From positions 1 to 49,393 of the forward strand of contig JACQDW010000022.1 of assembly GCA_016200845.1 (NCBI GenBank): a stretch of DNA of 49,393 nt, read 5' to 3'. Below the pieces are notes generated by a model, which made no database searches, was not told the DNA's origin, and was given only the letters and a program-made list of their open reading frames with translations. The DNA is from Burkholderiales bacterium (lineage in GTDB: Bacteria > Pseudomonadota > Gammaproteobacteria > Burkholderiales > Burkholderiaceae_D). This document shows, one piece after another, positions 29,494 through 32,932 of this stretch (position 1 is its first letter; the number at the start of each line of letters is the position of its first letter). The position numbers were made by a program, and so were the translations under genes.

Positions 29494-29575
29494 ACAAAAG
29501 ATCCTGCGGCTAAATTTGCAATTTCCCGTGCAATTGTTCTCAAAGCGAAGCGTTTTTCCGAACTTGTTTTGAATC

Positions 29576-29601
29576 AAGGGCTCTCTATTGAGAGCCCTTT
29601 T
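29576..29601 (+). terminator. Terminator after tldD
   Basis: Stem GGGCTCTC / GAGAGCCC with a TATT loop and four Ts, extended by AA/TT pairs. It lies about 85 bases after the tldD stop and 43 bases before the next ATG. Its position argues against any longer N-terminus for the following flavoprotein. Confidence 0.85.
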
Positions 29602-29643
29602 GCTTGCGACTACAGTATCGTTTTTCGTCTGGAGAGGTGCCGT

Positions 29644-30333
29644 ATGTCTAAGCTTGCAATCAATCAAGGAACGCCGCAATTTATTCCCTTAACGACTTAT
29701 CGATCCTATCCTGCGGAAGAGATGGAGCAGCGTGCGCGTGAATTTTATGCCGACATTGCGCGTCGTAAAACCATACGTGAATTTGCCAGCACTGCCGTGT
29801 CTCGCAAAGTTATAGAACAGTGTCTGCTCGCTGCGGGGACAGCACCTTCTGGCGCGAATCATCAGCCCTGGCATTTTGCTGTGGTCAGTGATCCTGCGAT
29901 TAAAAAGCGGATACGCGTAGAAGCAGAAATCGAAGAGCGCGAATTTTATGAGCGTCGCGCTCCGCAAGAATGGAAGGACGCACTGGCACCACTGGGCACC
30001 GATTCAAACAAACCATTTCTGGAAGAAGCACCGTATCTGATCGCCATTTTTGGACAGAAAAGCACTTTGATGGAGGATGGCACTGCGGTCAAAAATTATT
30101 ATGTGCCCGAATCGGTATCGATCGCGACAGGTTTTCTGATCGCCGCGTTGCATCACGCAGGTCTGGCAACTTTGACTCACACGCCAAGCCCTATGGGTTT
30201 TTTAAATGAATTATTGGGGCGCCCCGACAATGAGAAACCGTATATTTTGCTAGTGGTGGGACATCCTGCTGGGCATTGTATGGTGCCAAATATTCGTAAA
30301 AAGTCCTTAGAAGAGATTGCCAGTTTTCTTTGA
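29644..30333 (+). CDS. Iodotyrosine-deiodinase-like nitroreductase-family flavoprotein
   Basis: FMN enzyme of the nitroreductase fold whose best match by motif is the iodotyrosine deiodinase (IYD) subfamily. The 229 residues include R-R-K-T-I-R-E-F and [10 protein letters not shown] for FMN binding. The active-site lid carries Glu98, Tyr102 and Lys123, with the same spacing (4 and 21 residues) as the Glu/Tyr/Lys set that grips halotyrosine in animal [13 protein letters not shown] and the L-G-R-P-x-N-E-K-P segment also fit that subfamily. Substrate in this organism is unknown; halogenated or plain phenolic amino acids are guesses. ATG 29644 follows a GGAGAGG site. It sits between two terminators as a single-gene unit. 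Confidence 0.85.
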
Positions 30334-30413: not shown

Positions 30414-30443
30414 TTGCCAATGCCGCGTTGATGTTGTTATAGT
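30414..30443 (+). promoter_or_regulatory. Sigma-70 promoter of the aroG leader
   Basis: TTGCCA, an 18-base spacer, then TATAGT, each five of six to the consensus. It would start transcription near 30450, about 30 bases before the leader peptide ATG and over 200 bases before aroG, leaving room for the attenuator. Confidence 0.72.
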
Positions 30444-30479
30444 CGTTCCATTCAATTTGTTTGCAGACTTGGCAGAAAC

Positions 30480-30551
30480 ATGAACTTCGCACGATTTTAC
30501 TTTCACTTTTACTTTAGCTATTCCAAACCCTCGGCGGTGGAAAAGCGGTAA
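30480..30551 (+). CDS. Phe/Tyr-rich leader peptide of aroG
   Basis: A 23-codon open frame ending in TAA. Residues 3-14 read F-A-R-F-Y-F-H-F-Y-F-S-Y: five Phe and three Tyr in twelve positions, closely resembling known phenylalanine-operon leader peptides. It sits between a good sigma-70 promoter and a rho-independent terminator, directly upstream of the aromatic pathway gene aroG. In the standard attenuation model a ribosome stalled on uncharged Phe or Tyr tRNA would favour an antiterminator. The ribosome site is weak (GGCAGA). Attenuation is inferred from sequence only. Confidence 0.75.
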   Translation: MNFARFYFHFYFSYSKPSAVEKR

Positions 30552-30608
30552 GTTCACGACTAAGTAAAATTCAGCGAAACTTGACAAAACCGATTCCAAA
30601 AAACCGCC
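30533..30608 (+). promoter_or_regulatory. Candidate antiterminator pairing in the aroG leader
   Basis: GGCGGT at 30533-30538, inside the leader frame 11 bases after the last Tyr codon, is complementary to ACCGCC at 30603-30608, the 5' arm of the terminator. The two pairings exclude each other. A ribosome stalled on the Phe/Tyr codons would leave 30533-30538 free; one reaching the stop codon would cover it. Six pairs is short. A second, bulged pairing (around 30546-30554 with 30578-30592) is also possible. Confidence 0.5.
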
Positions 30609-30628
30609 TTAGGGGCGGTTTTTTTTTG
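30598..30628 (+). terminator. Terminator (attenuator) before aroG
   Basis: Stem A6-CCGCC / GGCGG-T6 with a TTAGG loop and a run of ten Ts. It stands 45 bases upstream of the aroG ATG and 46 bases after the leader stop codon, so it must be bypassed for aroG to be expressed from the upstream promoter. Confidence 0.88.
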
Positions 30629-30673
30629 CACAAATAATTTCAGATTTAAACCTCACAAACCACGGAAAAAACT

Positions 30674-31732
30674 ATGCAACGCACTGATGATTTACGTATT
30701 CGAGAAATGAAAGAGCTTTTGCCACCTTCGCATCTCATTCGCGAATTTGCTTGTTCGGACAAAGCTTCTGAAGTGACCGCTAGCGCACGCACCGCGCTCC
30801 ATCAAATTTTGCAAGGTCAGGATGACCGCGTGATGGTGGTGATCGGCCCATGCTCCATCCATGACACCAAAGCGGCACTCGAATATGCGCGCAAATTGGC
30901 TGCGGCTAAACAACGTTTTGCCGGTGAGCTGGAAATCGTCATGCGCGTGTATTTTGAAAAACCACGCACCACCGTAGGATGGAAGGGTTTGATTAATGAT
31001 CCCTACATGGACAATAGCTTCCGCATCAATGATGGTCTGCGTATTGCTCGTGAATTGCTATTGAATATTAATGAATTGGGGCTGCCAGCGGGTACGGAAT
31101 ATCTCGATATGATTAGCCCGCAATACATCGCGGATTTGATTAGCTGGGGTGCGATTGGTGCTCGCACCACAGAGTCACAAGTCCACCGCGAATTGGCGTC
31201 TGGTTTATCTTGCCCAGTTGGTTTTAAAAACGGCACTGATGGAAATGTGAAAATTGCGGTCGATGCGATCAAAGCGTCTTCACAACCGCATCACTTTTTA
31301 TCGGTGACCAAAGGCGGACATTCAGCGATTGTTTCCACTAACGGTAATGAAGATTGTCACCTGATTTTACGCGGCGGTAAAACGCCCAATTATGATGCGG
31401 CTAGTGTTGATGCGGCAGCCAGCAGTATCCTTGCAAATGGGTTGGCAGCGCGTATCATGATCGACGCCTCCCACGCGAATAGTTCAAAAAATCCTATGAA
31501 TCAGATTCCGGTTTGCGCCGATATCGCGCAGCAAATTGCGGCGGGTGACAAACGGATTATTGGCGTCATGATCGAATCAAATCTGGTGGCGGGGCGTCAG
31601 GATTTGGTGGCGGGAAAAGAGCTGGTCTATGGACAATCTGTCACGGATGGCTGCATTGATTGGGATGACAGTGAAGCCGTCTTGGAAAGCTTGGCAAAAG
31701 CGGTGCAACAGAGACGTGCTTTGTCGGCATAA
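30674..31732 (+). CDS. aroG: 3-deoxy-7-phosphoheptulonate synthase, class I (AroG/AroF type)
   Basis: First enzyme of the shikimate pathway: condenses phosphoenolpyruvate and erythrose-4-phosphate to DAHP for Phe, Tyr and Trp synthesis. The 352 residues match the class I family, with V-V-I-G-P-C-S-I-H-D, E-K-P-R-T-T-V-G-W-K-G and the G-A-I-G-A-R-T-T-E-S-Q and D-A-S-H-A-N-S-S-K-N segments for substrate and metal. The N-terminal extension (R-T-D-D-L-R-I-R-E-M-K-E-L-L-P-P) is the part used for feedback inhibition in this class. Whether Phe, Tyr or Trp is the inhibitor cannot be read with confidence, but the Phe/Tyr-rich leader points to the first two. Confidence 0.95.
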   Translation: MQRTDDLRIREMKELLPPSHLIREFACSDKASEVTASARTALHQILQGQDDRVMVVIGPCSIHDTKAALEYARKLAAAKQRFAGELEIVMRVYFEKPRTTVGWKGLINDPYMDNSFRINDGLRIARELLLNINELGLPAGTEYLDMISPQYIADLISWGAIGARTTESQVHRELASGLSCPVGFKNGTDGNVKIAVDAIKASSQPHHFLSVTKGGHSAIVSTNGNEDCHLILRGGKTPNYDAASVDAAASSILANGLAARIMIDASHANSSKNPMNQIPVCADIAQQIAAGDKRIIGVMIESNLVAGRQDLVAGKELVYGQSVTDGCIDWDDSEAVLESLAKAVQQRRALSA

Positions 31733-31760
31733 AAAATAGAGGGACTTCCCTCTATTTTTT
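31731..31760 (+). terminator. Bidirectional terminator between aroG and the aspartic protease gene
   Basis: AAAAAATAGAGGGA pairs with TCCCTCTATTTTTT around a very tight centre (effective loop ACTT). It overlaps the aroG stop codon and the stop codon of the convergent gene (31752), so both genes end inside their shared terminator. Confidence 0.88.
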
Positions 31761-32435
31761 TGTCAGTACCATGCGGTCACCGTCTTTGCTCATGCTGAGG
31801 CGCTTTAAGAAAGAATTGCCTAAGAGAGTGACTGGTAAAGGACCTTCGTGCACGGAAGCTTGTACTTGAAATACCTCGATGTCGCCGACCTTCACTGAGT
31901 CGAGTTGTATGAGATAAGTCGGCACGATGCCATTGGCGGTGTTGCTATAGCTGAGTCGGCCCTTTTTGTAATCCAAGCCCATGCGTTGTGCTTCATTGGC
32001 TGGGATGGCGACAAAGCTGGCACCGGTGTCTATCATGGCGCGGGTTTGACTGCCGCCGTTGATTTGTAGCTGCGTGAAGAAATGTCCCATTTCACTGGCG
32101 TTAAGCGTGACGCTGGGATTTTTGCTATTGGCGCTGGGGGCTAGCGCGGCTTGGCCAAGATAGAGCACCTGCTTTTTTCCACTCACTTCTATTGTCGCGC
32201 TACTGTGATCTAATGCGGTGAGTTTGGTATCGGGTGTCATCGCACTGCCGATGGCAAATGCTTTGGGCGCTTTGCCATCGATGATGAACAAGGCTTTTTC
32301 GCTACTGAGTGAAACCAATTTGATGTCAGCGGCATGTGCAACACCGGAGAAACTGAGCGTCAGGCAAGCTGACAATTGAATTGCAAGGAGAATTTTCTCC
32401 ACGATATTCAATATGTCTCGCTTGCTTTGGCTCAT
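31752..32435 (-). CDS. Periplasmic retropepsin-like aspartic protease (TIGR02281 type)
   Basis: Retroviral-type aspartic protease domain in a secreted protein. ATG 32435 gives 227 residues with a signal peptide (hydrophobic segment about 15-31, cleavage after A-H-A at 35). The catalytic motif is A-M-I-D-T-G-A-S-F (Asp136), followed by Y-K-K-G-R-L-S-Y-S-N-T-A-N-G and L-L-G-N-S-F-L-K-R-L near the C-terminus, as in the clan AA family; such enzymes act as dimers. Substrate unknown. It follows yajQ by 5 bases and is probably cotranscribed. An in-frame TTG overlapping the yajQ stop is a less likely start. Confidence 0.85.
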   Translation of the reverse strand: MSQSKRDILNIVEKILLAIQLSACLTLSFSGVAHAADIKLVSLSSEKALFIIDGKAPKAFAIGSAMTPDTKLTALDHSSATIEVSGKKQVLYLGQAALAPSANSKNPSVTLNASEMGHFFTQLQINGGSQTRAMIDTGASFVAIPANEAQRMGLDYKKGRLSYSNTANGIVPTYLIQLDSVKVGDIEVFQVQASVHEGPLPVTLLGNSFLKRLSMSKDGDRMVLTKK

Positions 32436-32440
32436 TATGA

Positions 32441-32932
32441 TCAATCGCGGAAGTTATTAAACTCCAGAGGTAAGTCTTTGATTTCTTTGCGCAGCAAGGC
32501 CATTGCCGACTGCAAGTCATCGCGCTTGGCTCCCGTCACGCGCACTGAATCGCCTTGTATGCTGGCTTGCACTTTCATTTTGCTATCTTTGATCGCCTTG
32601 ACGATTTTTTTTGCGTCTTCGGTCTGGATACCGTTCTTCACTTTTAAGACTTGTTTGACTTTGTCGCCGCCGATTTTTTCAACGTCGCCCTTGTCCAGAA
32701 AGCGAACGTCGACACTGCGTTTTCCTAAAGTCTGGGTGACTTCGACCATGATTTGGTCGAGGTGAAATTCAGAGTCGCCAAATAAAATAATCTCGCGCTC
32801 TTTGTCTTTTAATTCTACTTTGGCACTGGTTCCTTTTAAGTCGAAGCGATTGGTGACAACTTTGTTCACCTGGTTAATCGCGTTCTTGACTTCTTCCATA
32901 TTGGCTTCAGAAACGGTATCGAATGAGGGCAT
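32441..32932 (-). CDS. yajQ: YajQ-family nucleotide-binding protein
   Basis: The 163 residues match YajQ over the whole length: M-P-S-F-D-T-V-S-E, then [10 protein letters not shown]-x-x-R-F-D-L-K-G-T, and the C-terminal [12 protein letters not shown]-x-A-M-A-L-L-R. The family has two ferredoxin-like halves. A Xanthomonas member binds cyclic di-GMP and acts with a transcription factor; whether this one does is unknown. Divergent from murB. Confidence 0.95.

Follow-up and report, generated by a model that had tools for sequence, protein, structure and literature searches.

A probable ribosome-mediated Phe/Tyr attenuator in front of the DAHP synthase gene aroG in Burkholderiales

In Escherichia coli, attenuators govern pheA and trp, and aroG is repressed by TyrR. 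For a DAHP synthase gene, attenuation is described in Corynebacterium glutamicum, where aroR-aroF is controlled via a Phe-Tyr-Phe leader (PMC11802643, PMC4046766). In Sinorhizobium meliloti, the trpL transcript is described as starting right at the leader AUG (PMC7298713). Table 7 of PMC1173090 gives tyrA-linked attenuators, including those of Vibrio aroA-tyrA and of the Bordetella parapertussis gyrA-serC-pheA-tyrA cluster, but not the element described here, and the main text of Naville and Gautheret 2010 (PMC2965389) does not name aroG. Within the open-licence literature, where most subscription papers are absent, we found no report of an aroG attenuator in Burkholderiales.

The locus studied here lies in a 49,393-nucleotide stretch of DNA from a Burkholderiales bacterium (contig JACQDW010000022.1), referred to as the window. 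The initial annotation of the window had proposed a Phe/Tyr attenuator before aroG, and this proposal is borne out by conservation, in-frame codons, pairing and the three classical fold states at the terminator base. We conclude that aroG is very probably governed by a ribosome-mediated transcription attenuator that responds to the levels of charged Phe- and Tyr-tRNA, and in several lineages also of Trp-tRNA. The parts of the attenuator, its conservation, frame, spacing, covariation and fold states were computed. Between a nitroreductase gene and aroG, the promoter, the 23-codon ORF, the antiterminator arm and the terminator follow one another in this order:

29569-30333: nitroreductase-family gene, upstream neighbour of the leader region
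30414-30443, plus strand: putative sigma-70-type promoter TTGCCA-18-TATAGT with an extended -10 TG, based on the recurrence of TATAGT in family sequences
30480-30551, plus strand: leader peptide ORF MNFARFYFHFYFSYSKPSAVEKR of 23 codons with stop TAA; frame conserved
30486-30521, plus strand: run of aromatic codons F3 F6 Y7 F8 F10 Y11 F12 Y14, the proposed sensor, based on frame counts and fold scan
30486-30502, plus strand: segment 1, which overlaps the aromatic codons and forms the 5' half of the protector (1:2) hairpin by pairing with 30562-30578 in the fold
30533-30542, plus strand: antiterminator 5' arm GGCGGTGGAA, containing GGCGGT at 30533-30538, based on pairing and fold scan
30562-30578, plus strand: segment 2, the 3' side of the protector hairpin, based on fold and permutation test
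30594-30608, plus strand: antiterminator 3' arm TTCC..ACCGCC, common to the terminator 5' arm, based on pairing and fold scan
30598-30627, plus strand: intrinsic terminator, with a hairpin at about 30598-30624 and nine Ts at 30619-30627
30674-31732, plus strand: aroG, class I DAHP synthase and regulated gene, based on NCBIfam and Pfam

The gene downstream of the attenuator belongs to the sensed pathway, AroG catalysing the first step in the synthesis of aromatic amino acids. Its product scores 595.5 against a cut-off of 568 with the NCBIfam AroG model NF006723, and Pfam agrees. The minus strand at 31752-32932 carries a DUF520 gene and a gene of the retropepsin-like aspartyl protease family, both convergent to aroG. 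The genome that holds the window is of Oxalobacteraceae type, near Undibacterium, and is represented by a 3.43 Mb assembly in 227 contigs that is 70.6% complete; the closest named loci are 91-92% identical in AroG. It encodes a second DAHP synthase (L002:1366-2427, on G000:C151) that is 51% identical to the window AroG and has no aromatic leader. Another candidate DAHP synthase, L003, was rejected as a KDO8P synthase. A search for more leaders in this genome with R1, a covariance model of 44 family cores, gave one full-length match to a leader, and the next best match (C102, L144) reads as a plain terminator.

The leader peptide carries eight Phe or Tyr residues within residues 3-14, just as had been read from the 23-codon frame, and this frame is conserved in relatives. 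It is the sole ATG ORF of 10-45 amino acids in the window with at least seven aromatics in twelve residues, and one of 20 shuffled windows contained such an ORF. Across 101 leaders, the ten in-frame codons up to the last aromatic one give a TTY:TTR ratio of 439:5 and a TAY:TAR ratio of 210:2, figures that are favoured by the choice of frame on aromatic content; the other two frames give TTY:TTR ratios of 251:78 and 168:164. Three leaders misframed by our script (L063, L065 and L092) are kept in these codon counts and in those of spacing and phase. Codon-position entropy alone is a weak indicator (0.44, 0.53 and 0.60 in 28 leaders), with third positions mildly higher. Phe, Tyr and Trp codons substitute for one another across leaders, and Trp codons average about one per leader in families f22 (8 leaders), f49 (4), f39 (1) and f11 (1), against 0.1 in the window's family. 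At one locus (L183), the frame with the aromatic codons hits a stop after three Phe codons. The aroG leader has a short ORF that is rich, in frame, in codons of the regulated amino acids and that is presumably translated.

An intrinsic terminator stands before the structural gene, as had been noted, although its T run comprises nine Ts rather than the ten first counted. Its hairpin has 12 pairs in the fold, with CCGCC at 30604-30608 and GGCGG at 30614-30618. The leader region 30450-30632 folds at -47.5 kcal/mol compared with -35.55 (sd 3.76) for 200 shuffles, a z-score of -3.18 that beats all 200. The last aromatic codon, TAT at 30519-30521, lies 11 nt before GGCGGT, a distance shared by 53 of the 101 leaders (range 5-17). 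Relative to the ORF, the arm falls into the three phases in 81, 11 and 9 leaders; three of the 11 off-phase leaders are the misframed ones, so that 17 truly differ and not 20. In 98 of 101 leaders the stop codon comes before the terminator; the three exceptions are again the misframed ones.

The ability of GGCGGT to pair with the ACCGCC arm of the terminator, already pointed out in the initial annotation, holds up in that native pairing beats partner-swapped pairing. Since the GGCGG:CCGCC core is nearly invariant and cannot covary, the pairing around the core was tested, using permutations that correct only partly for relatedness. In 57 leaders (56 from other families plus L189), native antiterminator pairing outside the core reached -7.66 kcal/mol versus -6.59 when permuted (0/5000), and it exceeded the row mean in 40. 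L137, whose arm could not be parsed, was left out of the covariation set. The family set of 44 gave 5/5000 permutations, with native pairing better in 26, and when one leader was drawn from each of 14 families the median permutation p was 0.008, with p<0.05 in 178 of 200 draws. Among the core-flanking pairs in the 57 leaders, pair 1 (paired in 43; T-A 23, C-G 17) and pair 3 (paired in 33) lie above all 2000 permutations, and pairs 2 and 4 are within the permuted range, the native value being reached by 726 and 201 of 2000, respectively. For the protector hairpin, native pairing beats every permutation in the family set (45 leaders, 0/5000), and the 56 leaders of other families show no clear covariation (416/5000). 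An earlier and weak pairing test on 92 family sequences had native pairing above the swapped mean in 57 for both helices; compared with a shuffled partner, it was better in 69 (protector) and in all 92 (antiterminator). RNAalifold returned the terminator only, with little covariation, as the terminator core is invariant.

The switch states were explored with a footprint scan, in which the A-site codon was varied and the predicted folds were compared at several RNA 3' ends. The leading edge of the ribosome was taken to lie 10 nt beyond the A site. For window RNA ending at 30619, the terminator wins when no ribosome is present (-42.7 versus -31.4 kcal/mol); with codons 3-13 in the A site the antiterminator is predicted, and from codon 14 to the stop the terminator. 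As the RNA grows, the antiterminator range shrinks to codons 4-12 at 30621 and to codons 10 and 11 only at 30623. The 101 leaders behave similarly. With RNA just short of the terminator 3' arm, a stalled ribosome yields the antiterminator in 97 (shuffled spacers: 215/303), and 42 adopt it without a ribosome. Once GGCGG is complete, 53 stalled leaders are antiterminated and 47 terminated (shuffled spacers: 93 and 194 of 303), and 94 unmasked leaders form the terminator. Eight bases later, when the T run is complete, even masked leaders have the terminator as their minimum in 97 of 101 cases (96/101 in a separate run), and shuffled spacers give the antiterminator more often than native ones (41/303; 77/505 in the separate run). 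The switch is thus not visible in equilibrium folding with the full T run. Because the antiterminator is favoured only briefly as the RNA lengthens, the leader must decide kinetically, in line with the classical model, and it is only in this kinetic sense that the leader has a covarying antiterminator which uses the terminator 5' arm and excludes the terminator. The 11-base spacing had been taken to be about the ribosomal footprint. The spacing itself stands, but Tyr14 falls on the terminator side in this simple footprint model, so that the earlier aromatic codons would be the sensors.

From these features, we infer how the leader would be transcribed, translated and terminated and how it would respond to starvation. 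Transcription would start just after 30443. When aromatic amino acids are ample, the ribosome would reach the leader stop and cover the GGCGGTGGAA arm, the terminator would form, and aroG would not be transcribed. When aromatic tRNA is short, the ribosome would stall in codons 3-12 and open the protector hairpin; the freed arm would pair with TTCC..ACCGCC once this is made, delaying the terminator and letting aroG be transcribed. If the leader were not translated, the protector hairpin would bury the arm and the terminator would win.

A sigma-70 promoter had been claimed upstream of the leader, and TTGCCA-18-TATAGT is indeed present, with 36 nt between the end of the -10 and the leader ATG. 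On its own, the match in the window is not above chance (1 found versus 1.4 expected in shuffles). The motif recurs, however, in relatives: of 96 non-redundant family sequences (window included), 42 have TATAGT ahead of the leader, versus 1.2% of 2000 random 125-nt window stretches, and 45 have TTG-N3-16/18-TA-N3-T, versus 7.4% of random stretches. We consider it unlikely that the genome's TyrR-like protein, acting at the promoter, exerts the main control over aroG and that the leader only tunes expression. The genome does encode such a sigma-54-type regulator (L276:94-1653, on G000:C109), which has PAS, sigma-54 and HTH_50 domains, plus an ACT match that stays below threshold; its NCBIfam TyrR score of 473 bits lies below the cut-off of 576, and the protein is TyrR/PhhR-like. 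Yet between 29049 and 33372, no TyrR-box-like site of the kind associated with TyrR-repressed aroG in E. coli was found near the promoter or elsewhere when up to three mismatches to the consensus were allowed. PMC5343134 assigns TyrR regulons to gammaproteobacteria and describes the factor as missing from other classes. TrpR was not found in the window's own genome, within its 70.6% complete assembly. The proposal that attenuation is a different solution from TyrR keeps its footing in the missing TyrR-box-like site near the leader, but needs care since a TyrR-like protein is encoded.

We regard it as very improbable that the leader peptide acts through nascent-chain arrest or in trans rather than as a codon sensor. 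Of the 99 distinct family leaders, 93 retain a tail of AVE or a similar sequence, which is what action by the peptide would favour. The codons of this tail, however, lie across the antiterminator arm, and in five of the 99 (L018, L073, L080, L081 and L082) the tail frame changes while the DNA of the arm is kept. The phase differences in 17 of 101 leaders across families and the mutual replacement of Phe, Tyr and Trp codons likewise speak against action by the peptide.

Conservation was assessed in 112 loci with an AroG-type hit, comprising 80 named loci, 29 from a family search, the window locus in two copies and the paralogue L002. Of the 111 AroG-orthologue loci (duplicates included), 109 have both leader and terminator, in 99 distinct segments, so that the comparison with relatives, including in-frame aromatic codons and antiterminator covariation, comes out in favour of the initial annotation. 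The element occurs in 78 of 79 named loci with upstream sequence (one frame-shifted); the other named locus, L077, starts inside aroG and is uninformative on the leader. L058 is without the element, and its aroG directly follows tldD. In L068:2334-2395, from a metagenome-assembled genome, the element is present with its aromatic codons frame-shifted, either a real loss or an assembly error. The element of L089 lies ~530 nt before aroG; by eye, several hundred bases of repeat-like DNA (L089:930-1330) separate terminator and gene. Upstream of the 80 named loci, we detected a nitroreductase gene in 8, tldD alone in 35 and neither in 37, three of the latter having <1.5 kb of upstream DNA. The upstream gene varies while the element stays, and the element therefore belongs to aroG. 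That the hairpin and Ts are instead the terminator of the nitroreductase gene, ~270 nt past its stop, with the short ORF incidental, is scarcely credible, because this gene is upstream in so few of the 80 named loci, 78 of which nevertheless have leader and terminator ahead of aroG, the in-frame aromatic codons are conserved and the promoter motif recurs in between.

Beyond the family, the attenuator was traced with R1, which matched in 63 of 399 genomes of the order. Outside the family, 47 of 52 matches in the order (18/18 + 29/34) lie just upstream of an aroG orthologue, placing the element before aroG in 13 other families, or 14 with the window's own. Matches without aroG (L165, L178, L180, L182 and L186) were rejected by eye as ordinary terminators; the one in L178 precedes a mraZ-like gene. 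Irrespective of the element, 120 genomes of the order were also sampled evenly over families. There was no AroG match at E 1e-60 in 29 genomes. Of 101 loci, 22 (13 from a second DAHPS group plus nine more) were dropped for a short coding overlap that went unrecognised and L242 for being too short, leaving 78 usable aroG upstream regions. A fixed rule was passed by 27 of the 78 (1/78 after local shuffling), and L227, recognized by eye, makes 28. About a third of the sampled aroG genes carry the element; in these 78 regions, it was not found in many families of the order. With all 13 second-group DAHPS loci dropped, L002 is the one gene of that group for which a leader was looked for and found absent. 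A class search with model R2 gave matches in 40 of 369 genomes. Fifteen loci outside the order were inspected, of which 11 are without aroG and four, in four genomes (three of family f63, one of f68), have the element before aroG. A quickly built AroG tree with 88 ingroup rows (element present in 69 and absent from 19; not a random sample) was rooted on a distant paralogue. On this tree, the label needs 8 changes versus 17.3 in shuffles. Well-supported branches force 6 of the 8, and element-bearing rows branch deepest. The tree fits an old element with repeated loss, although a single origin is not proven.

The other families also differ in where the leader mRNA appears to begin. Of 53 leaders outside the family, 23 have an extended -10 (TGnTAnnnT) whose end lies 6-10 nt ahead of the leader ATG, versus 0.13 expected from other offsets, and these 23 belong to five families (f4 6/8, f22 8/8, f39 1/1, f43 4/4 and f49 4/4). 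With so short a distance to the AUG, their leader mRNAs are probably leaderless, starting at or beside the AUG.

As the element stands before aroG in many related bacteria, they probably use it to detect a lack of aromatic amino acids. If so, a sizeable share of Burkholderiales would sense such shortage at the pathway entry by RNA and not by a repressor, and one leader would read two or three amino acids. We lean, by a small margin, toward a broader view, namely that the attenuator is an ancient gate which, on shortage of any aromatic amino acid (Phe or Tyr, and Trp in several lineages), acts on the first committed step of the entire aromatic pathway. In this view it was passed on together with aroG in Burkholderiales and in a small number of other Gammaproteobacteria, is read from a leaderless leader mRNA in several families, and does the job of enteric TyrR and TrpR. 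Leaders differ naturally in how many Phe, Tyr and Trp codons they hold, in spacing and in whether their start is leaderless; they offer a test set for how leader design relates to amino acid specificity, and the switch is one to consider when engineering aromatic production in Burkholderiales.

Rfam Phe_leader (RF01859) and Leu_leader (RF00512) represent the same kind of element as the aroG leader, which scores 22.9 bits against a gathering score of 55 for the former and 24.5 bits against 50 for the latter. Rfam models, including T-box and riboswitches, gave no gathering-level matches in the window or in 10 relatives, and a covariance model could therefore serve to annotate the element across genomes. 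The predicted leaderless leaders resemble those described for S. meliloti trpL (PMC7298713) and Streptomyces lividans (PMC8079986), whose transcripts start from the leader AUG; these differ in reading Trp, Leu or other single amino acids before other genes, and in S. meliloti the trpL peptide and RNA are reported to act in trans as well (PMC7298713). The E. coli pheA and trp attenuators share the leader ORF, the competing antiterminator and terminator and a protector pairing that is predicted for the aroG leader, but serve terminal branches of the pathway and respond to Phe or Trp alone (PMC11878033, PMC11802643). The mechanism is very likely classical and is well supported by the comparison among relatives, with a placement before Burkholderiales aroG for which we found no earlier report. 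In C. glutamicum aroR-aroF, likened here by its description rather than by its sequence, a leader with Phe and Tyr codons likewise precedes a DAHP synthase gene, and stalling under Phe limitation enhances expression (PMC11802643, PMC4046766); that system belongs to an actinobacterium and has a Phe-Tyr-Phe run, whereas the window leader has eight aromatics.
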